Source: Salinadaptatus halalkaliphilus
Lineage (GTDB): Archaea; Halobacteriota; Halobacteria; Halobacteriales; Natrialbaceae
Length of the DNA stretch: 64,000 nt
Direction: 5' to 3'
Assembly (NCBI RefSeq): GCF_006543045.1
Contig: NZ_RBZW01000012.1
Location: forward strand, 124,001-188,000
In this document: positions 5,029-61,885 of the stretch, in pieces
Layout of the letters: each line of letters begins with the position of its first letter
Numbering within the stretch: position 1 is the stretch's first letter
Notes under the pieces: generated by a model
What the model was told of the DNA's origin: nothing
Seen by the model: the letters and a program-made list of their open reading frames with translations, nothing else
Database searches by the model: none
Program-made: the position numbers and the translations under genes

Positions 5029-6207
5029 TTAGATAACGCCTTTTTCGCGCAACGACTCGATCTCCTCGTCCGTGTAGTCGAGCGCCTCGAGAATCGCCTC
5101 GGAGTGTTCGCCCAGATCGGGCATCGCCTCGCTGGTCGTCTCGAGACCGTCGAAATCGATGGGGTTTCTGACGTAGGGGACCGGTCCATCCTCGGTCTCG
5201 AGTTCGTCGATGAGTTCCAGGTGGTCGGTCTGGGGGTGCTCGAGGACGTCCTCGAGGTGGTTGACATCGCCCCACGGGATGCCGGCGTCGGCGAGTCGCT
5301 GGGCCCAGTAATCGCGGGACTCCTCGGCGATAATCGATTCCATCGTCGCTTCGAACGTTTCGCGATGCCCGACGCGTTGCTCGTTTGTCGCGAATCGATC
5401 GTCCTCGAGGAGGTCGGGACGGTCGATGACATCGGTACAGAGCGCTTCCCAGTGGGCGTCGCTGAGGATAGCGAAGTTGACGTACTGATCGTCGGCCGTC
5501 TCGTGGGGGCCGTACGGCGTCAGGAGATGATGGCGCATACCGACGCGGGCGGGGGTTTCGTCGTTGTGCCAGTACTTGTGGGGAAAGTAGCCCAGCCACG
5601 AGACCATCCCGCCGAACATGGTGACGTCGATCGCCTCGCCGTCGCCGGTTCGCTCGCGGTGGAACAACGAGAGCAACGTCGCCATCGTCCCGTAAGTCGC
5701 GGCGTTGATGTCACAGATCGAGAGCGGAATCTTCGCCGGCGCGTCCGGTGAGCCGTTCATCAGGATCGAGCCGGTTTCGCCCTGCATCACCAGATCGTAG
5801 GCCTTTCGGTCGCTGTAGGGGCCGGTGCGGCCGTAACCGGAGATATTCAGGTAGATGACGTCCTCGTTGATCGCCGAGATGGCGTCGTAGCCGACGTCCA
5901 GCCGTTCGACGACGCCCGGCGAGTAGTTCTGGACGACGACGTCGGCCTCGGCCGCGAGTTCGTAGAAGATCTCGGTCCCCGCCTCGGCCTTCAGATCGAG
6001 TTCGATGCTCGATTTGTTCCGGTCGACCCAGGCGTGGGCCGAGGAGTCGCCGTGGACGACCGAATCCCAATGGCGATTGACGTCGCCGACGCCGGGCCGT
6101 TCGACCTTGATAACTTCGGCCCCGAAATCCCCGAGCAGCCGCGTACACAGCGGCGCGCTGACGCCGCTTTCGAGACTCACGACGGTGATATCCTCGAGCG
6201 CGAGCAT
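5029..6207 (-). CDS. CaiB/BaiF class III CoA-transferase
   Basis: Second 392-aa class III CoA-transferase, with VVSLESGVSAPLCTRLLGDF, VIKVERPGVGD, LDLKAEAG, LNISGYGRTGPY and AIDVTMFGG (conserved Asp). It lies 1 bp downstream of the MaoC-type hydratase gene and is surely co-transcribed with it. A CoA-transferase plus MaoC hydratase pair is a familiar arrangement for unsaturated or branched acids, for example mesaconyl- or crotonyl-type intermediates. The glutamate mutase and methylaspartate genes that would mark the methylaspartate cycle are absent here, so the specific substrate stays open. Confidence 0.9.
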   Translation of the reverse strand: MLALEDITVVSLESGVSAPLCTRLLGDFGAEVIKVERPGVGDVNRHWDSVVHGDSSAHAWVDRNKSSIELDLKAEAGTEIFYELAAEADVVVQNYSPGVVERLDVGYDAISAINEDVIYLNISGYGRTGPYSDRKAYDLVMQGETGSILMNGSPDAPAKIPLSICDINAATYGTMATLLSLFHRERTGDGEAIDVTMFGGMVSWLGYFPHKYWHNDETPARVGMRHHLLTPYGPHETADDQYVNFAILSDAHWEALCTDVIDRPDLLEDDRFATNEQRVGHRETFEATMESIIAEESRDYWAQRLADAGIPWGDVNHLEDVLEHPQTDHLELIDELETEDGPVPYVRNPIDFDGLETTSEAMPDLGEHSEAILEALDYTDEEIESLREKGVI

Positions 6208-6208
6208 C

Positions 6209-6811
6209 TCACTCCTCCCCCTCGCTCGAGGGCTGGGTACCGATGCCGGTCGGCCAGCCCGGCGGCTGGGCGGCGCTTGGCTGGGCGTGCGAGCGCTTCT
6301 GGACCATCGGCGTCCGCTCGAGGCTGAGGACGAGTTCGTCGTCCTGATTGTACGCGCGAAGTTTCGTCGTCACGATGCCGACGTGGTCGCGGGACTCGAG
6401 CTCGCGCTTCGAAACGACTTCGCTCTCGACGAAGAGCGTGTCGCCGTGGAAGACGGGCGCGTGGTGGCGTACGTCGTCGTAGCCGAGGTTGGCCGTGGCG
6501 TTCATCGAAATGTCGATGACGCTCATCCCGACCGCCGTGGCGATGACGACGAGGCCGTTGACGAGTCGCTCGCCGAACTCCGTTTCGGCGGCGTAGGCCT
6601 CGTTGAAGTGCATCGGGTTGAGGTTCATCGTGATGTTCGTCAGCCAGACGTCGTCGGTCTCGGTGATCGTCCGGCCGAAAGGGTGTTTGTAGACATCGCC
6701 GACCGTGAAGTCCTCGTAGTAGCGGCCCTGCCAGCCGGAGACGACGTTCGATTCGTCGGTCGTATTCGGCTTGTCGGTCGTGCTCTCGTCGGTCGTGTCG
6801 TCGTCGGTCAT
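6209..6811 (-). CDS. MaoC-like hot-dog fold acyl-CoA hydratase
   Basis: This 200-aa protein has a MaoC/R-hydratase core at about residues 25-165: YYEDFTVGDVYKHPFGRTIT, then the hydratase 2-type motif NPMHFNEAYAAETEFGERLV, then VFHGDTLFVESEVVSKR. It should hydrate an enoyl-CoA double bond. The first 20 residues are a Thr/Asp-rich acidic tail, and the last 25 a Pro/Gln-rich tail, both likely haloadaptive. It leads a minus-strand operon with the CoA-transferase 1 bp downstream; an acyl-CoA dehydrogenase is encoded just upstream on the same strand. Confidence 0.88.
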   Translation of the reverse strand: MTDDDTTDESTTDKPNTTDESNVVSGWQGRYYEDFTVGDVYKHPFGRTITETDDVWLTNITMNLNPMHFNEAYAAETEFGERLVNGLVVIATAVGMSVIDISMNATANLGYDDVRHHAPVFHGDTLFVESEVVSKRELESRDHVGIVTTKLRAYNQDDELVLSLERTPMVQKRSHAQPSAAQPPGWPTGIGTQPSSEGEE

Positions 6812-6892
6812 GGATATGGATGTGAATCGATCGTGGATTATCGAACGCGTTCGGGATCGTCCGTCGTTCGCCGCATTCCTCGAGCGTGTCTC

Positions 6893-8098
6893 TCAGTACG
6901 AGCGCGGCATCCCGAGGACGTTCTCGCTGATGTAGTTCAACACGAGCTGTTGGGTGATCGGGACGATTCGGGTAAGTCGCGCTTCCCGGAAGTATCGCTC
7001 GACGTCGTACTCGCGGGCGACGCCGAACCCGCCGTGGGTCTGGACGGCGGCATCTGCCGCGTCGAAAGCGGCCTCCGCCGCGCGGTACTTCGCAGCGTTT
7101 GCCATCGCACCGGTCTCTTTCTGACTCAACTGGTCGATGGTGTCGGCTGCCCCGTACAGCAACTGCTTTGCTGCCAGCACCTCGGTGTAAGCGTCCGCGA
7201 GCGGATGTTGGATCGCCTGATTCGAGCCGATTGCGTTGCCGAAGACCTCGCGTTCGTTCGCGTACTCGATGCCACACTCGAGGGCGACCTCGCCGAGGCC
7301 GACACACTCGGCGGCGATCGCGAGCCGTTCCTCGTTGAGACCGTCGAGAATCTGGTAGAAGCCGTTTCCCTCCTCGCCGATGAGTCGGTCTGCCGGCACG
7401 CGCAGGTCGGTAAACCACATCTCGTAGGAGTGGACGAACCCGCTGACGGTCTTTGGAATCTGTTCGATCTCGAGGGCGTCCTGTGCGTAGGCGTCCTCGA
7501 TGTCGACCAGGAACATCGAGATGCCCTGCGTTCGCTTCTCGACCTCGTCTCGGGGCGTCGTCCGCGCGAGCAACAGCAGGTAGTCCGTCGCGTCGACCCG
7601 GGAAATCCAAATCTTCTGGCCGTTGACGACGTACTCGTCGCCGTCTTTTTCGGCCCGTGTCTCGATCGACGTGGAGTCGGAGCCGGCGTTTGGCTCGGTC
7701 AGTCCCATCGACTGAATGGCGACGTCGCCGCGGGCGACCTTCGGCAGGAGTTCCGCCTTGAGGTCCTCGTCGGCGTACTTCACGAGCGGCGTGCTGTTAT
7801 AGATGCCACCGTGGATCGCCTGGGCGGCGCTGAAGCCGCCGCCGTTGGCCGCGATCTCTTCCATCATCACGGCGACCTCCGGCGTTCCCATCCCGGCACC
7901 GCCGTACTCTTCCGGGATGAGAATACCGAGCCAGCCGTGCTCGCCCAGCAGGTCGACGAATTCCTGTGGGTAGGACTCCGCTTCGTCATGTTCACGCCAG
8001 TACGCTGCGTCGAACTCCGAACAAATATCGCGTATGCTGTCGCGAACGAGCGCCTGTTCGTCCGATACCGGGATGGTATCCCGCCAGGAGTGAACCAT
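6893..8098 (-). CDS. Acyl-CoA dehydrogenase
   Basis: Flavin-dependent dehydrogenase of 401 aa that would desaturate an acyl-CoA. It shows LIPEEYGGAGMG, the FAD-contact motif SMGLTEPNAGSDSTS, NGQKIWISR, QAIQHPLADAYTEV and QTHGGFGVAREYDVERYFREARL. The C-terminal segment that normally reads EGTxEIQ is here VPITQQLVLN, so the canonical MCAD-type catalytic Glu is absent. The helix-G motif NEERLAIAAECVG keeps the Glu used by isovaleryl/long-chain-type enzymes. It reads in the same direction as the MaoC-CoA-transferase pair, 81 bp upstream of it, and is divergent from an IclR regulator. Confidence 0.92.
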   Translation of the reverse strand: MVHSWRDTIPVSDEQALVRDSIRDICSEFDAAYWREHDEAESYPQEFVDLLGEHGWLGILIPEEYGGAGMGTPEVAVMMEEIAANGGGFSAAQAIHGGIYNSTPLVKYADEDLKAELLPKVARGDVAIQSMGLTEPNAGSDSTSIETRAEKDGDEYVVNGQKIWISRVDATDYLLLLARTTPRDEVEKRTQGISMFLVDIEDAYAQDALEIEQIPKTVSGFVHSYEMWFTDLRVPADRLIGEEGNGFYQILDGLNEERLAIAAECVGLGEVALECGIEYANEREVFGNAIGSNQAIQHPLADAYTEVLAAKQLLYGAADTIDQLSQKETGAMANAAKYRAAEAAFDAADAAVQTHGGFGVAREYDVERYFREARLTRIVPITQQLVLNYISENVLGMPRSY

Positions 8099-8333
8099 AC
8101 GTATACGGCGTTCGGACGACTACATAAATCATGTGGAGGCTGACAGGCAGCCACGACTTCGCCCACCACCATGGTAAGAGAGACCAATAGTGGTTCGAAC
8201 ATGCAGAACGTTTTTCCTCACTCGGGCGCTCGTCGTTTCCATCGTACCTAACGGGTGAAACACCAGTATACCTTTTAGGAGGGCGATAACGCCGAGGACA
8301 GTGGCGTTCCAGGAGTTCGACGATGCAGAACGC

Positions 8334-8337
8334 TTAA
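8334..8337 (+). promoter_or_regulatory. TATA-like box for IclR gene
   Basis: CTTAACA lies about 27 bp before the ATG at 8363, the spacing expected for a leaderless haloarchaeal transcript. The 264-bp gap it sits in (8099-8362) also holds the divergent acyl-CoA dehydrogenase promoter. Confidence 0.45.
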
Positions 8338-8362
8338 CACCGTTCGAGCGAGACGATTTGGC

Positions 8363-9130
8363 ATGGCATCAGAGCACGAACGGGGACGGGTGAAAACGAT
8401 GGAAACCGCATTCGACATCATCGAGACCCTGGTGGCACTCGATGGCGGTCGTATCTCCGAGGTCGCATCGGAGCTCGGACTGGCAAAGAGTACGGCCCAC
8501 CGGCATCTGACGACGCTCGAGGAGCTCGAGTACGTCGTCGTCGACGACGGCGTCTATCGGCCGGGACTTCGATTCCTCCAGATCGGCGAGCAAACGCGAA
8601 CGAGGCAGGAGGCCTACGAACTCGCAAAGGAGAAAGTCACCGACCTCGCTGCGGAAACCGAAGAACGGTCGCAGTTTATCGTCGAAGAGTACGGTCGCGG
8701 TGTCTACGTCTTTAGAGACACCGGCCAACGGGCAGTACACACCGATTCCGAGATCGGCAAGCGGATCCCGATTCACGCGACGGCTGCGGGGAAGGCCCTT
8801 CTGGCGACTCTCTCCGACGAACGTATCACCGAAATTATCGACCACCGTGGATTGCCGGCGCTGACCGAACACACGATCACCGACGAGTCGACGCTTCGCT
8901 CGGAGCTCGAGGGGATCCGCGACCGCGGCTACAGCATCAATCAGCAGGAAAACACGATCGGTCTTCGTGCCATCGGCGTTCCCGTCGAACACGGGGACGG
9001 TACCCCGTTCGGGGCCTTGAGCGTTTCCGGTCCGACACACCGCTTTCAGGGCACCCTGTTCGAGGAGACGCTCCCGAATCTCATGCTCGGGACGGCAAAC
9101 GAGCTCGAGTTGAACATTCAGTACTCCTGA
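8363..9130 (+). CDS. IclR-family transcriptional regulator
   Basis: Complete 255-aa IclR protein. The N-terminal winged HTH is at residues 12-70 (RISEVASELGLAKSTAHRHL). The effector domain spans about 85-250 (SQFIVEEYGRGVYVFRDTGQ, IHATAAGKALLATL, DRGYSINQQENTIGLRAIGV, GALSVSGPTHRF). It is divergent from the acyl-CoA dehydrogenase at 6893-8098 and so probably controls that operon. It is close in sequence to the IclR at 13462-14217, suggesting paralogous duplication. Its TGA stop is the first codon of a repeat beginning TGAGACGG. Confidence 0.93.
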   Translation: MASEHERGRVKTMETAFDIIETLVALDGGRISEVASELGLAKSTAHRHLTTLEELEYVVVDDGVYRPGLRFLQIGEQTRTRQEAYELAKEKVTDLAAETEERSQFIVEEYGRGVYVFRDTGQRAVHTDSEIGKRIPIHATAAGKALLATLSDERITEIIDHRGLPALTEHTITDESTLRSELEGIRDRGYSINQQENTIGLRAIGVPVEHGDGTPFGALSVSGPTHRFQGTLFEETLPNLMLGTANELELNIQYS

Positions 9131-53866: not shown

Positions 53867-55144
53867 ATGGATTACAGCCCACGTTTCAGGCTCTTGCCAA
53901 CCTCCGAACAGCGAGAGCTACTGGGCTGGCAGCGCGACACCGTGCGCCAAGTTTACAACCACGCGCTCTACCGGTTCGACCAGTTACCCGAACGCGACGA
54001 CCAAACGGTCCGCCAACGCGTCTGGCAAGTCCGCGACGAACTCCCCAACTGGAAGGCCAAGTGGGGCAAATGGAGACAGGTGTACTCCACCGTCCTACAA
54101 GCCACAGTGGAACGCATCTACCACAGTATCACCGGGCTCGCCCAGCAGCGCGATAATGGACACAACATCGGGGATTTGAACTGGAAGAAGCCGCGAGAGT
54201 TCCAGAGTTTTACGTATCGCCAGCGGGGCTTCGAACTCAACGAAAAGAGTGGTCCTGCTGGCCGTGGACTCTTAACACTCAAGAAAGTGCGCGGGGAGAC
54301 GCTCGAAATCCCCATCCGACTCCACCGTGACATCGACCCGAACGACATCAAACACGTCACCGTCAAGCAAGAGGCGACCGGGGCGTGGTATGCGTCGTTC
54401 AGCGTCGAACGCAACGAACCAGAGAAACCAGACCCCGAAGATATCGACCCAGAGGATACAGTAGGCCTCGACCTCGGCGTGTTGAACTTCGTCCATGACT
54501 CGAATGGGCGATCAATCGATTGCCTTGACTTGTCCGATGACCGCGAACGCCTCAAGCGTGAGCAACAGTCGCTCTCCGGGAAAGAGTACGAGTCGAACAA
54601 CTGGCACAAACAACGCCAGCGCGTCGCTAAAGTCCACATGGACATGCGGAACAAGAAACGGGATTATAAGCACAAGCTCGCTCACGCGTACACGACGACG
54701 TACGACGCCGTGTTCGTCGAGGACTTGAACGTGAAGTCGATGCTGGAGGGCGATGGTAACGCGCGGAACAAAGCCGAGGTAGGCTGGCGCGATTTTATCA
54801 CAATTCTCAAGCACCACGGCCGGAAACACGGGTGTCACGTGGTAGAAGTCGAACCAGATGGGACGACGAAAGAGTGTGCCTCGTGTGGAGTGGAGACGGA
54901 GAAACCGTTGTGGGTGCGCGAACACTCGTGTCCGTCGTGCGGGTTCGAGTTGGACCGGGATTTCAATGCGTCGCTGAACGTTCTTTCTCGCGGCCTTGCC
55001 AAGCTAGGAGTGGGTCACTCCGAAGAAACGCCTGTAGAGACTGCTACCTCTGTGGATACGGGTTCCGTATCTTCAAGTCGCGTCGTTGAATCAGGAAGCC
55101 CCTGCCTCAAGGAGCCGCCGAAGGCGGCGAGTAGGCAGGGGTAG
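53867..55144 (+). CDS. tnpB: TnpB, RNA-guided endonuclease of IS605/IS1341 type
   Basis: A 425-aa TnpB starting MDYSPRFRLLPTSEQRELLG. All three RuvC acidic residues are present: Asp202 (TVGLDLGVLNF), Glu285 (AVFVEDLNVKS), Asp365 (ELDRDFNASLNVLS). The zinc finger is ECASCG ... CPSCG (Cys337, 340, 355, 358). Length is normal for haloarchaeal members and nothing is frameshifted, so it is probably active. The last 30 codons run through the right-end hairpin, so mRNA and omega RNA overlap. The guide should be the flank just after about 55145. Confidence 0.93.
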   Translation: MDYSPRFRLLPTSEQRELLGWQRDTVRQVYNHALYRFDQLPERDDQTVRQRVWQVRDELPNWKAKWGKWRQVYSTVLQATVERIYHSITGLAQQRDNGHNIGDLNWKKPREFQSFTYRQRGFELNEKSGPAGRGLLTLKKVRGETLEIPIRLHRDIDPNDIKHVTVKQEATGAWYASFSVERNEPEKPDPEDIDPEDTVGLDLGVLNFVHDSNGRSIDCLDLSDDRERLKREQQSLSGKEYESNNWHKQRQRVAKVHMDMRNKKRDYKHKLAHAYTTTYDAVFVEDLNVKSMLEGDGNARNKAEVGWRDFITILKHHGRKHGCHVVEVEPDGTTKECASCGVETEKPLWVREHSCPSCGFELDRDFNASLNVLSRGLAKLGVGHSEETPVETATSVDTGSVSSSRVVESGSPCLKEPPKAASRQG

Positions 55145-56607: not shown

Positions 56608-56696
56608 TCAGTGGACCACGGGTTGTCATCGGTTGCGTTGGCAACCGCCGCCCGGATCTCGGGTGCGCCGGCAATGACGTACAGGAAACCGTATCA
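56608..56696 (-). repeat. Palindromic repeat (ATACGG family) overlapping permease stop codon
   Basis: On the minus strand TGATACGGTTTCCTGTACG starts at the permease stop (TGA, 56696-56694), followed by ATTGCCGGCGCACCCG and an imperfect mirror ending ACAACCCGTG. It also lies just after the glyA stop at 56584, so it sits between convergent genes, a natural terminator position. Confidence 0.65.
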
Positions 56697-57961
56697 GTCG
56701 TCGGTCGATCCACTCGAGTCGCCGCCGATCGCTTCGTGTTTGTGAAGCAGCGACATCTTCTCGCGGAGGTCTTCGTCCTCGTCGCCGTACGTTCGGATGC
56801 GGTAGACGTACAGCAGTGTCGCCAGGCCGATCCAGACGAACTGGAAGAGAAGTGCCGACGGGGCGCCAAGCGCGACGAAGATCATGAACACGGCCGAGAC
56901 GATGACGTTGCCGACGGCGACGACCTTGAGCACCGGCAGCGGCAGCTTGTAGAACGAGTACTTGTACCGATCCGGAAACACCGTCGGCAAGTTCCACAGC
57001 GCGACGCCACTGATCATGAAACTGATGAAGATGCCGGTGACGGTGACGGTGACGAGCCAGTCCAGTACGTCGACGGCGATCAGTTCGCCGAGAGGACCGG
57101 TAAGCGGCGCGGCGAGCAACGGTGGCACTGCGAGCAACAGGAGCGCGCGGTTGGGCGTTCCGAACCGCTCGCTGATTCCCGCGAAAAAGCCGGGGACGAC
57201 GTCGTCACGGGCCGCTCGCATGATCGTTCTGGAGTAGGAGGTATACAGCGTGTTGGTCGTCGTCGCCGCCGCGACGAGTGCCCCGAGTGCGACGAACGCG
57301 ATCGCCCATCCCGGCAAGATACCGTCTGCAACGGCCGCGAGGCCGCCGTCGATCGCTTCACCGTCCTCGGCGATCGCTTCCCAGGGAACCGACCCAACCA
57401 GCGCAACGACAACGGCGATCGTGAGGACAGCCACGAGCGTCATTCCCGCAGCCAGCACGCGCGGGATGTTCTTGGCCGGGTTCTCGAGTTCTTCGCCGAT
57501 CTCGATGATCATCGCAAAGCCCTGAAACGGGATGTAGAGGGTGACGGCCGCGAGGAAGAACGTCCCGTAGCCGTCGGCGAACGGTTCGCCCTCACCGGCC
57601 GGGAACAGTGGGTCGAGATTCGACGCGTCGAAGGAGGTGAAACCGCCGAGGGCGAAGGTAAGCATCGCCGCCATCAGTACGCAGACGAGGACGATTTGGA
57701 TGTTCGCGGCGAGTCGAACCCCGACGTAGTTAAACACCAAAAAGGCACCAAGCAGGAGATACACCGAAAGCAGCGTCGGTAAATCAGCGAAGACGGGAAC
57801 GAACTCGGCGAACCCGAGTGCAGCAAACAGGAGATACGCCCACACCGACATCACCGGCACGGCGACGCCCAGAAACCCCCAGTATGGCCCAACCAGCCTC
57901 GAGGCGTAGACGTAGGCGCCACCAGCGACCGGTATCGCACCGCCAAGTTGTAACAGCAATA
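56694..57961 (-). pseudogene. APC-family permease, C-terminal part (gene split by insertion)
   Basis: Codes for about 420 residues from LLLQLGGAIPVAGGAYVYAS to the end: roughly ten transmembrane helices of the amino acid-polyamine-organocation superfamily, with GFAMIIEIGEELENPAKNIP (helix 6-7 region). The first two helices are missing here. They are found at 61691-61885, on the same strand, 3.7 kb upstream. The reading frame enters this part inside the 9-bp duplication (57953-57961). Only a TTG at 57959 could serve as start, so the product is probably not made or not functional. Confidence 0.88.
57953..57961 (+). repeat. Target site duplication, left copy
   Basis: ACAGCAATA directly precedes the left inverted repeat. 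The identical sequence follows the right inverted repeat at 61693-61701. Confidence 0.85.
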
Positions 57962-57962
57962 C

Positions 57963-57976
57963 AGCGTGTCATAGAA
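57963..57976 (+). repeat. Terminal inverted repeat, left
   Basis: AGCGTGTCATAGAA; its reverse complement lies at 61678-61691. Confidence 0.85.
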
Positions 57977-58135
57977 TCGTTCACAACGATCAGTAGAGCT
58001 GCGAACTGACCGGTGAAGGAGCCACCAAATGCGATTGATATTCGAACTGGTATGCAAGATATAGAGTGAATTCATCGGTCTCGCCTTTCTGGATTTGAGG
58101 ATGGGAGTTTTGTAGCGACCGGATATAGAACGCAC

Positions 58136-58216
58136 ATGGAAGGAGAGTTGCATCGAAAGCTTGTCGAAGAATCTTCGGATATTGCGACGATCATCGATTC
58201 AGAAGGGTTCTCTTAG
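58136..58216 (+). pseudogene. Possible N-terminal scrap of a PAS-domain sensor protein
   Basis: A 26-codon frame reads MEGELHRKLVEESSDIATII then DSEGFS and a stop. LVEESSDIATIIDSEG resembles the first strand and helix of PAS domains in haloarchaeal sensor kinases. The rest of such a protein is absent: the frame runs into the end of the PiT gene. It suggests the element was assembled by recombination that truncated a sensor gene. Confidence 0.4.
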
Positions 58217-59493
58217 CCGAGAAGTGAAAACAAGGCATAGGATCCCACGAGCGACATCATCGGCGTGATCACCCAGAGTGTCACAACGCGAACTGCCGCT
58301 GCCTGGTGGAACAGACCTTCGGCAGACAGTTCCTCCGGGTCTTTTTCGCCGATGCTAGACACACCATCCCCGGATGCGTGCTGTCTGTCCGGGTGAGGAG
58401 TCTCGCCTTCAGCGAGTTCGCCCACAGTCGGGCCCGAATTGACCCCCTTGTTGCCTTCAACTGGGTGAAGTCTGAGTGCACCAGTCGTAAACTTTGGAGC
58501 GGATTCATCGGCGGGAGATCGTGTGACTATTTCTGCGAGCGTCCGCGCTCGGCTTGCACGGCCCCACCCGAGTCCAATAATACAACTGGTCGTACTCACG
58601 GCGAGACTGGCTGGAATTCCGAGCCACGATAGGACGGTGATAATCGTCGCACCCACGGTCGAAACAATGAGCGCAGCCAGAATCGGCATCTCAGTAATAT
58701 CGTTGCCAACGGTCGCCAGCGTCCGCCGGGCAATCGTGAAGCCGCCCACGCTGATGGCCCCAATTGCGAGGAGAATCGCCGGGCTAGGGTCAAGGGAACC
58801 GTTACCGACAAGCGGGGCGACTGCGTTCGCCGCGTTCGAGGCCCCAGCACTGAACGCCATGTAGCAGGCAATTGCCACCACAAGCGCCGACCCGATCAGA
58901 TCCCGAGGCGAGACGTTATCGTTGACCGATAGCCGTGGGAGTCTCCCCTGGGTATCGATTGCGATCAACGGGTTCGTGAGGCGACCGAATTCGAATTTGG
59001 CGTCGAGGTGCGGGTACAGATATCTGCCAATAAACACACCTGTGAAGACGGCGATCAGCGGGGCGACGATCCATGCCGACAGGATGGTAAACATTAGCGC
59101 AGTGTTGAGCGTCCCCGTTGCCAATCCGAGTCCGACGATTGCTGCGACGGCTGTCATCGAGGTTGACGCCGGGACACCGTAGAGGTTCGAGATCAGGAGT
59201 GCGAGCCCGGTAAAAAAGAGGACGCCAACGCTCGCTGCAGGTGTAAAGGCTGCTGCATCGATGATTTCGGTACTCATCGTCGTGATGACCTTCCGCCCAA
59301 TCGTCCACGCTCCGAGGAACGCAAACACGGTAAACAGTGCTCCGGCGGTGACTTTTCTGACGGCCCGGCTGCCGACTGCCGGTCCGAAGGCGACCCCGGT
59401 TGATGACCCGCCGATATTGTACCCGACGAACACCGCCACCAGCAATCCCACGAGAATGAGTAATTCTGCCACGTGTCTGCGTTCGGTTCGCAT
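58213..59493 (-). CDS. PiT-family inorganic phosphate (anion) transporter
   Basis: A 426-aa membrane protein from ATG 59493 (MRTERRHVAELLILVGLLVA); an in-frame start at 59595 would add 34 hydrophilic residues. The two PiT repeats are recognisable: FVGYNIGGSSTGVAFGPAVG near the N-terminus and FSAGASNAANAVAPLVGNGS in the second half, with TGLALLISNLYGVPASTS between. The usual G-x-N-D-x-A-N-A Asp is replaced in both, so the substrate may not be phosphate. An acidic/His loop of about 90 residues precedes the last helix. Cargo of the 57962-61692 element. Confidence 0.85.
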   Translation of the reverse strand: MRTERRHVAELLILVGLLVAVFVGYNIGGSSTGVAFGPAVGSRAVRKVTAGALFTVFAFLGAWTIGRKVITTMSTEIIDAAAFTPAASVGVLFFTGLALLISNLYGVPASTSMTAVAAIVGLGLATGTLNTALMFTILSAWIVAPLIAVFTGVFIGRYLYPHLDAKFEFGRLTNPLIAIDTQGRLPRLSVNDNVSPRDLIGSALVVAIACYMAFSAGASNAANAVAPLVGNGSLDPSPAILLAIGAISVGGFTIARRTLATVGNDITEMPILAALIVSTVGATIITVLSWLGIPASLAVSTTSCIIGLGWGRASRARTLAEIVTRSPADESAPKFTTGALRLHPVEGNKGVNSGPTVGELAEGETPHPDRQHASGDGVSSIGEKDPEELSAEGLFHQAAAVRVVTLWVITPMMSLVGSYALFSLLG

Positions 59494-59598
59494 GCGAAAA
59501 AATAGTGCCGTTTCACTGCTGAACTGTTGGCTCCGACCGATAGACGCAGTAACACGGATATCTAGGACCGATTCGTCCCCATACGGGTTGCCCAAAGA

Positions 59599-59808
59599 TC
59601 AGTGATCGATATGCGCCTTCTCTCCATCAACCGTTGAACGGACATTTTCACAAGCTGTTAGAAGGTGGTCTGCATCCAGAGGCTGAGGGCATTGGAGAAG
59701 GGGGGTTTCGCTATATGATTGCTGGTAAGAGAGCCTGTACCGCCCGAAAACCAGTATCAACTCCCTAAGGACTCCCCTTTTTGCGCGCTCAGAGGCTGTA
59801 GTCAACAC
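59599..59808 (-). CDS. Small open frame of uncertain status between the cargo genes
   Basis: A 69-codon frame (MLTTASERAKRGVLREL ... VDGEKAHIDH) in the same direction as the flanking cargo genes. It ends just upstream of the longest possible PiT start. No domain is recognisable. It may be a remnant of a larger gene, or non-coding. Confidence 0.3.
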   Translation of the reverse strand: MLTTASERAKRGVLRELILVFGRYRLSYQQSYSETPLLQCPQPLDADHLLTACENVRSTVDGEKAHIDH

Positions 59809-59900
59809 ATGTATTTCATTCCGTCAGAGCCCAGCGGAACAATTTGCTGGAACTCTCGGCCAAGATTGAACACCAGAACGTGATGTAGCACCAGAGCGAC

Positions 59901-61556
59901 TCATCTGAATGTTGTAATGAACGCGTTGACAGCGTCGTCACTTCCTGTGACAATGAGGCGGTCGTTTCCTTTGATTACTGAACCGGCTCCGGGATTTGTC
60001 AGCAATTCACCGTTCCGCTCAATGGCGACGACGGTCGCTCCGGTTCGGTTGCGGACAGCCGATTCCTTGAGCGTTCTGCCGACAAGCTCAGGGGCAGTTG
60101 TCCGGATAATTTCGAACTGTGTTTCCGGTGTGAGAACTTCTAACTGCGTTTCCGGTGTGAGACCTTCTTCGTCCTCTAAGAGAACGGATGAGACCATTCG
60201 CCCGGTAACGGTCGAAAGGGCGAGCACGTACTCGGCACCAGCCCGGTAGAGTTTTGCTGTGTTTTCGACATCGTTCACCCGTGTTATCACTTCGATATCG
60301 GGTGCCAACTCTTCGATTGCGACGGTAGCGTACATTGTGGTCGTGTCGGCATCCAGTGCCAACACGACAACGCTTGCATTTTCGACACCGGATTCAGAGA
60401 GTGTTTCCTGCTGATTAATATCGCCGGTAATATCGACTCTGTCGTCCTCAGTTATATCAACCACCGTGGGTGAAACGTCGTTTGTCTCCAGAACGTCGAT
60501 GACTGCTTGCCCAACGACACCATAGCCCGCCACGATGACCTGCTCACTACCGGGGGTCATTGGAGAAATTGTTCGGCTCTTCACCTCTTGGAGGGCCTCG
60601 TGATTTCCGGCAACAAGCAAAATCGTATTTGCGTCAATCCGCGTATTGGGCTCCGGAGCAGGACTGAACTCACCATTGGACCAGATCCCATTGACGGTAA
60701 TCCCGAGCTCTCTCGGCAGTTTCAATTCCGCAAGAGTCTGCCCTGCGAGGTCGCTGTTTTTCTCGACGAGGATTTCTGCGAGTTCAAAATCGTCACCGAG
60801 TTCAATCGTCTCTTGGAGTTTTCTTGTAACCGAGAGGGTCGCTTTATTGCCGAGCGCGCGACCAAGGGCTTGTCGAGGTCGAATCACCTGGTCAGCGCCC
60901 GCATACCGATGATACTCTGCATCCTGTTTATTCTCCGCGACACTCACGACCATCAGATCTTCCCGGAGTTCTCTAGCAGTAAGAATTACTGAGATGTTCT
61001 CTTCGTCAGAAACATCGGCCACCAGCGCCTGGGCTTCGTTGATGTTTGCGGCTCGGAACGTCTGCTCATATTCGGGATCGCCGCAGATCGCTTCGATTCC
61101 ACGGGTATTCAGATCCAGCACCGTTTTGGGATCATCATCGATAATAACATAGGGGACATCCGCTGCCTCAAGCTTAGACCGAAGGACATCTTCGCGCGGG
61201 TTGTATGAACAGATGATGACGTGGTCAGTAAGTTCGGTCGATTCCTGTGGGTTATCTTTGAGGGCTTGTTGAAATAGCGGCACGACGAACAGCGGTAGTG
61301 CTAGAAACACGAGGAGCACGCCGGAAAGGTTCATCCAAACGACGATGAGATTCATGATGGCTGTGTTCCAGTACCCAGTATCGCCACCGAATCCGGCTGT
61401 CGTGAGTGCCTCAATGACGACTTGTAAGGAATCAAAAAACGCGATCTCTACCCCTTCAAACGTGAGCATTGCCCACTGGTAGAGGAGCGTGTACACAAAG
61501 ACAAGCAGGGCCACGGCAGACAATAACATGACAATCCGTCGCTGCCATTCTATCAT
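59901..61556 (-). CDS. Potassium channel-like protein with two RCK (TrkA-N/TrkA-C) units
   Basis: A 551-aa protein. Two transmembrane helices (about 8-28 and 64-92) flank a pore loop EALTTAGFGGDTGYW, residues 50-63, where TTAGFGG replaces the usual TVGYGD filter. Two cytoplasmic RCK modules follow: VIICSYNPREDVLRSKLE ... VIIDDDPKT, and VIVAGYGVVGQAVIDVLE ... VDITEDD, each with a TrkA-C domain (LAGQTLAELKLPRELG; VGRTLKESAVRNRTGATVV). It probably gates K+ in response to nucleotide. A 27-bp tandem duplication inside the gene (60115-60168) repeats LTPETQ(L/F)E. Cargo of the interrupting element. Confidence 0.85.
   Translation of the reverse strand: MIEWQRRIVMLLSAVALLVFVYTLLYQWAMLTFEGVEIAFFDSLQVVIEALTTAGFGGDTGYWNTAIMNLIVVWMNLSGVLLVFLALPLFVVPLFQQALKDNPQESTELTDHVIICSYNPREDVLRSKLEAADVPYVIIDDDPKTVLDLNTRGIEAICGDPEYEQTFRAANINEAQALVADVSDEENISVILTARELREDLMVVSVAENKQDAEYHRYAGADQVIRPRQALGRALGNKATLSVTRKLQETIELGDDFELAEILVEKNSDLAGQTLAELKLPRELGITVNGIWSNGEFSPAPEPNTRIDANTILLVAGNHEALQEVKSRTISPMTPGSEQVIVAGYGVVGQAVIDVLETNDVSPTVVDITEDDRVDITGDINQQETLSESGVENASVVVLALDADTTTMYATVAIEELAPDIEVITRVNDVENTAKLYRAGAEYVLALSTVTGRMVSSVLLEDEEGLTPETQLEVLTPETQFEIIRTTAPELVGRTLKESAVRNRTGATVVAIERNGELLTNPGAGSVIKGNDRLIVTGSDDAVNAFITTFR
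60115..60168 (+). repeat. 27-bp tandem duplication within channel gene
   Basis: Two copies of AACTG(T/C)GTTTCCGGTGTGAG followed by A(A/C)CTTCT, at 60115-60141 and 60142-60168. They add nine residues (LTPETQLEV/LTPETQFEI) before the last TrkA-C domain without disturbing the frame. Confidence 0.85.
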
Positions 61557-61677
61557 TATAGCTCGATAGGACTGATTTGATTAAGTATTCTTTTATTGTA
61601 CAGTTGGTGTTGAATATGCGCGTTCCATCTTGCACGCGAGTCTTGACAAGACTTGGATAAGCAGAGCGTGCGAATCT

Positions 61678-61691
61678 TTCTATGACACGCT
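61678..61691 (-). repeat. Terminal inverted repeat, right
   Basis: TTCTATGACACGCT on the plus strand, the exact complement of the left repeat at 57963-57976. The element's terminal bases create the stop codon that ends the N-terminal permease fragment. Confidence 0.85.
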
Positions 61692-61885
61692 CACAGCAAT
61701 AGGATACCAAGAACCATCGGCACTATTGCGAGGACTATCGCGAGGACGATACTCGGCCCGGCCACGGCTGCCATCTGGGTCGGCACGATGAAGATACTCA
61801 TTCCGACTGCCGTCCCAATGAGTAACGCCACCGCCGCGATCGGGCCCACCTGCTCGTTGATCAACTTGAAATCGTCATCGGCCAT
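61691..61885 (-). pseudogene. APC-family permease, N-terminal part (gene split by insertion)
   Basis: A 64-codon frame starting MADDDFKLINEQVGPIAAVA. It encodes the first two helices of an APC permease (VALLIGTAVGMSIFIVPTQM, then SIVLAIVLAIVPMVLGILLL). The sequence continues precisely into the C-terminal part at 57952 once the 3.73-kb element and one target copy are removed, giving a 483-residue permease of normal length. The stop (61691-61693) is formed at the insertion junction. Confidence 0.88.
61693..61701 (+). repeat. Target site duplication, right copy
   Basis: ACAGCAATA, identical to 57953-57961, placed directly after the right inverted repeat. Confidence 0.85.

Follow-up and report, generated by a model that had tools for sequence, protein, structure and literature searches.

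In the 64,000-nucleotide stretch of the Salinadaptatus halalkaliphilus genome analysed here (contig NZ_RBZW01000012.1; hereafter the window), an APC permease gene is split by a 3731-bp element without a transposase. From its sequence and that of its relatives, we consider this element to be probably a two-layer mobile unit, in which outer ends of the ISH11 type would enclose an inner system for the site-specific exchange of gene cassettes. With somewhat less confidence, we favor the view that haloarchaea own a third gene-cassette system beside integrons and dif modules, which would use paired heterospecific 29-bp sites, a 37-bp linker, and a putative recombinase, would assemble genes in tandem, roughly ten or more to an array, and would have its cargo loaded and unloaded by ISH11-type transposons. 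A preliminary description of the locus had proposed a non-autonomous cargo element breaking a permease. This proposal is supported, and none of the findings named as contradicting it (the same arrangement in relatives without the duplication, permease parts from different families, or inverted repeats at no other locus) was made. However, it overlooked the larger point, namely that the cargo is enclosed by 29-bp module sites, the defining feature of the proposed gene-cassette system.

Deletion of the element together with one copy of the flanking repeat ACAGCAATA restores a frame of 1452 bp, or 484 codons including the stop, with zero internal stops. The preliminary description had made the same calculation, and the permease parts, the 9-bp direct repeats, and the 14-bp inverted repeats all lie at the positions it gave. 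The larger permease fragment matches AA_permease in Pfam (E = 8e-33), and the 64-amino-acid fragment, which is too short, has no Pfam match. The joined protein aligns end to end with intact homologues, in agreement with the claim that the two parts come from one permease. An unbroken permease of 483 amino acids is present between glyA and folD in relatives, where the preliminary description had proposed to look for it, and represents the empty site. The empty-site sequence aligns without gaps over the junction with intact permeases from several genera of the same family (82 to 87% protein identity), and glyA and/or folD flank the intact gene in most of the loci retrieved. The GC content of the element is 0.54, compared with 0.62 in its flanks.

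A copy of the 3731-bp element that is 100% identical was found at an unrelated site in another genus, in Natronolimnohabitans sp. A-GB9 (G044:C34), with an 11-bp target site duplication (TSD), GACTGCTGTCC, on both sides. Contamination was ruled out, since the insertion sites and TSDs of the two copies differ, and the simplest reading of the sequences is a recent movement of the element between genera. The terminal inverted repeats are perfect over 14 bp, and the single outer base beyond them differs (read from the outside in, C on the left and G on the right). Both copies have the same odd outer bases at different sites, and the boundaries of the element are therefore 57962 and 61692. The exact 14-mer occurs in the window only at the two ends of the element. 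Elsewhere in the same genome, where other loci with these repeats had been anticipated, the terminal repeat with one change brackets copies of an insertion sequence (IS) of 1.07 to 1.15 kb, one of which encodes an intact DDE transposase of 330 amino acids. Named relatives, at 85 to 92% protein identity, are ISNpe17, ISH11, ISHma6, and ISHla6. Named ISs of this group with recognizable TSDs have the terminal inverted repeat GAGGGTGTCATAGAA and TSDs of 6 to 11 bp, and those in a wider set are 6 to 12 bp long; TSDs of 6, 8, and 9 bp have been reported for ISH11 in strain comparisons (PMC10264941). A subgroup about 70 to 75% identical in protein includes copies with the repeat GAGCGTGTCATAGAA, which is exactly that of the element. 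The TSDs of the element, 9 and 11 bp, fall within the range of the ISH11 group, as do those of its family (6 to 11 bp). Because terminal repeats and variable TSDs match those of ISH11-group ISs and the element has no transposase of its own, we suggest that it is likely moved in trans by an ISH11-group (IS5-like) transposase.

This suggestion can be compared with the distribution of the transposase. Among the 392 genomes of the order, 65 contain a match to the final 79 bp of the element, and an ISH11-type transposase is present in 36 of these 65 and in 69 of the 327 others (odds ratio 4.6, p of about 7e-8, with genomes counted without phylogenetic correction). A hybrid, L119 (G347, oriented 5534-9087), has as its left part a decayed ISH11-type IS with transposase fragments and as its right end the right module of the cassette elements; it lies as a whole within one 7-bp TSD (AGCAGTA) and carries PAS/kinase genes. 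No autonomous member with cassette-type ends was found among the closed elements. An IS1595-like open reading frame (ORF) near a right end in L065 raised the possibility of an IS1595 helper, which is unsupported, the matching terminal repeats being those of ISH11-type ISs. The genome of the window also contains a segment of about 400 bp, the size of a miniature inverted-repeat transposable element (MITE), between two imperfect ISH11-type repeats (L024:5017-5414, G000:C66). A HalOD1-like ORF at L061:20-340 (G140) continues at its C-terminal end into an ISH11-type terminal repeat, and this end sequence has therefore become coding.

The cargo of the element, a PiT-type transporter (PHO4 match, E = 5.5e-44) and a two-RCK protein (TrkA domain matches), was correctly recognized in the preliminary description. 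Its reading as a transporter-for-transporter replacement went too far: the cargo is incidental, since the family carries many unrelated genes. When right ends were matched to left ends, about 14 independent insertions were recovered in which TSDs of 6 to 11 bp sit flush against the ends; the chance expectation was about 0.2. The interiors are unrelated and encode PAS histidine kinases, an HTH_10/BAT regulator with HalOD1, an archaeal pilin, a glycosyltransferase, Mrr-type and DpnII-type endonucleases, a HIT protein, a ThsB-type TIR protein with HIT, a PemK-type toxin, lipoproteins, and a pentapeptide protein. All-against-all comparison found conservation only in approximately the first 118 and the last 76 to 85 bp. 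In the L118 element (G281), the passenger with the ThsB-type TIR domain is Thoeris-like and adjoins the HIT-family gene, and several of the other passengers encode restriction endonucleases or resemble toxin-antitoxin genes; the cassettes may spread defence genes. Two pairs of elements differ in their interiors at the same site. On plasmids of Haloplanus rubicundus and Halobellus sp. DFY28, the element occupies the same position (TSD CAATCA, homologous flanks) with different interiors, and Halorubrum vacuolatum has two copies with the TSD TATTGAG, also with swapped interiors. In both pairs, the end modules are 97 to 99% identical, and identity ends on the left after GCAAGAT[A/G]TAGAG and on the right before CGCGC..T.TATCTTGC.

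These inner break points are 29-bp sites with an 11-7-11 layout, both pointing inward. The L site, GTGCAAGATAY-AGAGNNT-NANTCAGCAC, usually lies 84 to 89 bp from the left end of the transposon, and the R site, GTGCAAGATAC-ANNGCGC-GTATNNNNCAC, usually 53 to 56 bp from the right end; the two differ in their spacers (AGAGNNT and ANNGCGC). When a weight matrix was trained on the ends of the transposons, it detected modules of the form L site, gene, R site, single or in tandem, that lack such ends, and solo sites are present in plasmids. The loci examined (1.1 Mb) contained 278 sites, whereas 8 were counted after shuffling; of 12 back-to-back site pairs, 11 were spaced 38 to 40 bp end to start (37 to 39 bp between sites), compared with 0 in the null. 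In 347 kb of regions selected by their density of L sites only, with R sites and linker length playing no part in the selection, 203 sites were found, compared with 1 in shuffled sequence. In these regions, a linker of 37 to 39 bp is present at nearly every adjacent module boundary, the median module length is 617 bp, and the order at the boundary is mostly R site, 37 bp, L site. The cassettes are mainly single small genes in both orientations (31:25), and in G220 they form runs of roughly ten or more per 20-kb stretch with some gaps. The consensus of the 95-bp boundary (56 copies) is.TG...gAt.CGCGC.cTgTATTCAGCA., followed by 37 bp with CTGTCAG.Aa.gg and then by GTGC.agATACAGAGG.TGtaTtCAgCA.; apart from a tRNA, no known RNA family was found in the arrays.

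The behavior of individual genes at these sites is in line with modular exchange. The mean pairwise identity of the PiT module among six carriers is 0.87 inside the module and 0.94 in the inner half-site; it falls to 0.71 in the spacer, to 0.52 in the outer half-site, and to 0.50 outside. In two genomes in which the PiT module is 98% identical, the identity stops exactly at both sites. Another pair at one site, without ISH11-type ends, is 92% identical along 2.3 kb that end at position 15 of the L site; past this point, the compared stretch shows no identity. A pilin cassette is common to an ISH11-type transposon and to a site-bounded module in a Haloarcula plasmid, and a BAT+HalOD1 cassette is found both in a transposon and in an array; the cargo of the transposons and the cassettes of the arrays therefore form one pool. 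Gene modules flanked by inverted recombination sites are in general recognized by the recurrence of one gene in different contexts, with breaks that fall at the sites, and this is what was found.

The element of the window shows the same organization (Table 1). Its block 58207-59616 shares 89 to 94% identity with PiT modules carried by other replicons of haloarchaea, and the PiT and RCK modules are parted by the R site of the former, a linker with CTGTTAGAAGG, and a probable L site eroded by one base, where the combined linker and L profile ranks 17 among 127,886 window positions. Positions 92-246 of the element correspond to a stretch of a kinase cassette that lies equally far from the end there, and a 26-codon kinase start persists at the edge of the PiT block. 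An earlier passenger would therefore have been largely replaced. Outside the element, an intact TnpB/OrfB_IS605-type gene of 425 amino acids lies directly upstream of glyA (53867-55144, plus strand).

Table 1. Features of the interrupted permease and of the element within it (window positions; TSD, target site duplication)
Feature	Position	Strand	Basis or remark
APC permease, C-terminal part (including left TSD)	56694..57961	-	open frame, joining, homologue alignment
Left TSD ACAGCAATA	57953..57961
Non-autonomous ISH11-type element, 3731 bp	57962..61692		identical copy at L055:7792-11522
Left end module conserved in family, through L site	57962..58080	+
Left terminal inverted repeat AGCGTGTCATAGAA	57963..57976	+
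L-type 29-bp site, inner half degenerate	58052..58080	+
Remnant of PAS histidine-kinase passenger start (MEGELHRKLVEESSDIATIIDSEGFS*)	58136..58216	+	homologous to kinase cassette in L098
PiT-type (PHO4) transporter ORF	58213..59595	-	PHO4 match
R-type 29-bp site closing PiT module	59602..59630	-
37-bp linker with CTGTTAGAAGG (consensus CTGTCAG.AA.gg)	59631..59667
Probable L site at start of RCK module, eroded by loss of one base	59668..59696	+
Two-RCK potassium-channel-like protein, 551 amino acids	59901..61556	-	2x TrkA_N / 2x TrkA_C
R-type 29-bp site	61607..61635	-
Right end module conserved in family	61607..61692	-
Right terminal inverted repeat AGCGTGTCATAGAA	61678..61691	-
Right TSD ACAGCAATA	61693..61701
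APC permease, N-terminal part (including right TSD)	61693..61885	-	open frame, joining, homologue alignment

We propose the following mechanism. In the outer layer, an ISH11-group transposase acting in trans would move the transposase-less segment and generate TSDs of 6 to 12 bp; one such move would have broken the permease. In the inner layer, each of the fixed end modules (about 118 and about 80 bp) stops at one of the 29-bp sites, between which genes would be interchangeable. A putative site-specific recombinase would cross over in or beside the 7-bp spacer, and a tyrosine type is proposed because of the 11-7-11 architecture and because the breaks fall within the spacer or adjoin it. The different spacers of L and R would prevent recombination between the two ends and set the orientation of the cassette. 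The element of the window would have carried a PAS-kinase cassette first, later largely replaced by the PiT cassette; it holds the RCK-channel cassette as well. A tyrosine-integrase domain in a 437-amino-acid open frame was noticed about 150 bp from an L site (G173:C1:377384-378011); it may be a cassette passenger or a candidate recombinase. Genes annotated as "Recombinase family" are present on two plasmids with L/R-bounded modules (L251:14249-14935 and L249:44249-44905).

Several points weigh against this two-layer interpretation. The outer half-sites fit the general consensus, and the break points of close relatives cannot be placed inside the site rather than at its edge. The nulls for the site counts were mononucleotide shuffles, and the array regions were picked by L-site density. 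A close ISH11 transposase was not found in 29 of the 65 genomes with the family right end, and no PF00589 gene lies consistently beside the arrays in G173 and G220. The swaps could also have come from homologous recombination, as the end modules are nearly identical. The last point belongs to an alternative explanation, in which the elements are plain mobile insertion cassettes of an ISH11-derived family, the transposase binds at the subterminal 29-bp motifs, and the swaps arise by homologous recombination, which would look alike in the same-TSD pairs. The ends, the TSDs, and the helper IS fit this explanation fully. However, the same sites bound modules without ISH11-type ends, in tandem arrays with a fixed 37-bp linker; the same-site swap without such ends breaks in the L site, and the PiT modules of the six carriers break in the R site. 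We consider this explanation unlikely.

It might also be supposed that the 95-bp boundaries are dispersed intergenic repeats, either regulatory or similar to repetitive extragenic palindromes or MITEs, which lie between resident genes and passively scatter them. The boundary is indeed a repeated element with a conserved core, and the genes lie in both orientations. This view is difficult to reconcile with inner half-sites that move with the gene while the linker and outer sequence change, with 98% identical modules that end exactly at both sites and have different linkers, and with the lack of a known RNA family in the arrays other than a tRNA, and we regard it as quite improbable. We give hardly any credence to the remaining explanation, that the arrays are true integrons with IntI acting on attC, although their tandem single-gene cassettes and the two inverted double-box arms around a central segment at each boundary are reminiscent of integrons, which are known from other archaeal phyla (PMC9668308). 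RYYYAAC and GTTRRRY occur together in 0 of the 56 boundaries, and the identification of the boundaries as attC was rejected. A hairpin or covarying boundary is likewise unsupported: arm pairing was 0.562, compared with 0.559 with shuffled partners, there was no covariation, and the fold of the alignment was empty. The linker length is nearly constant, and no integrase is consistently adjacent, although arrays without IntI exist in true integrons too.

The proposed cassette system appears to be confined to haloarchaea in the genomes searched. The L-site pattern was found in 102 of 195 haloarchaeal genomes, compared with 0 for a reversed control pattern, and in 0 of 164 other genomes of the phylum. 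Among 84,980 species genomes, all 20 exact matches to the right-end pattern have haloarchaeal names or are contigs of haloarchaeal metagenome-assembled genomes. Neither this pattern nor a strict L-site pattern had a match in the IMG/VR viral contigs, and the 29-bp intergenic repeats of Halovirus HF2, considered as a counterpart, are unrelated AT-rich promoters. No description of a gene-cassette system of this kind was found in the open-access papers searched, a set with few subscription papers, and the cassette-border system is apparently widespread in haloarchaea and undescribed. Haloarchaea swap genes intensely, and one candidate mechanism is now directly testable, since the site is defined, the geometry of the boundary is fixed, and carriers are named. 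If confirmed, the system would be an archaea-native gene-cassette platform in about half of the sampled haloarchaeal genomes. As the identical 3.7-kb copies illustrate, a simple IS family can ferry many unrelated genes across genera without a mover encoded by the element.

Comparison with known systems was made for each layer. ISs of the ISH11 group (ISH11, ISHma6, ISHla6, and ISNpe17; IS5-like) resemble the element in their terminal repeats, which agree at 14 of 15 bases or are identical in the GAGCGTG subgroup, and in their variable TSDs of 6 to 12 bp. They are about 1.07 kb long and contain a transposase, whereas the element is 3.7 kb long, has none, and carries passengers between extra end modules. 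Mobile insertion cassettes consist of IS ends around passenger genes, contain no transposase, and are mobilised in trans. Those of the Bacillus cereus group (MIC231 of IS231) are mentioned in two papers (PMC1196294, PMC2266710). The terminal repeats of a helper IS, TSDs of the helper kind, and passengers without a transposase are all found in the haloarchaeal elements, and mobilisation in trans is predicted. The IS family and the domain of life are different, and the haloarchaeal elements have many unrelated passengers and inner 29-bp exchange sites. As judged from these features, the outer layer is to be regarded as the haloarchaeal equivalent of a mobile insertion cassette, with ends of the ISH11 type. 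ISH2 and other haloarchaeal MITEs are also non-autonomous and moved in trans by ISs with related ends (PMC3119063, PMC10264941), but the known ones are short and mostly non-coding, whereas the cassette elements hold full genes and have modular ends.

The inner layer would work like integron cassettes or dif modules, and no decisively testable defining feature of either was found in it. The dif (pdif) modules of Acinetobacter (PMC6449649) similarly place adaptive genes between short inverted double-box sites, on plasmids and chromosomes and in varied contexts. However, dif sites are 28 bp long with an 11-6-11 layout (PMC8371274, PMC6449649) and occur once per boundary; the haloarchaeal sites, which lack this Xer-site form, are 29 bp long (11-7-11) with GTGNNNNATAC half-sites, are of two types, and occur twice per boundary with a 37-bp linker. 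Integron arrays, including archaeal ones (PMC9668308), likewise consist of tandem small single-gene cassettes with conserved inverted-repeat boundaries, but the haloarchaeal arrays have no attC core motifs or covarying fold and have a constant linker and a cassette site at both ends. In Haloquadratum walsbyi, 64 deletion-coupled insertions have been described, with unrelated DNA at an identical position in two strains, and their mechanism was called undescribed (PMC3119063). These insertions resemble the swaps reported here in that unrelated DNA is present at exactly the same position, and they differ in that the authors saw no conserved targeting sequence and in that the regions are up to 104 kb long. 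A link of the Haloquadratum walsbyi replacements to the L and R sites is plausible, and the cassette system, if it operates as proposed, would account for some of the cases in which genes of haloarchaea have been replaced at the same position.

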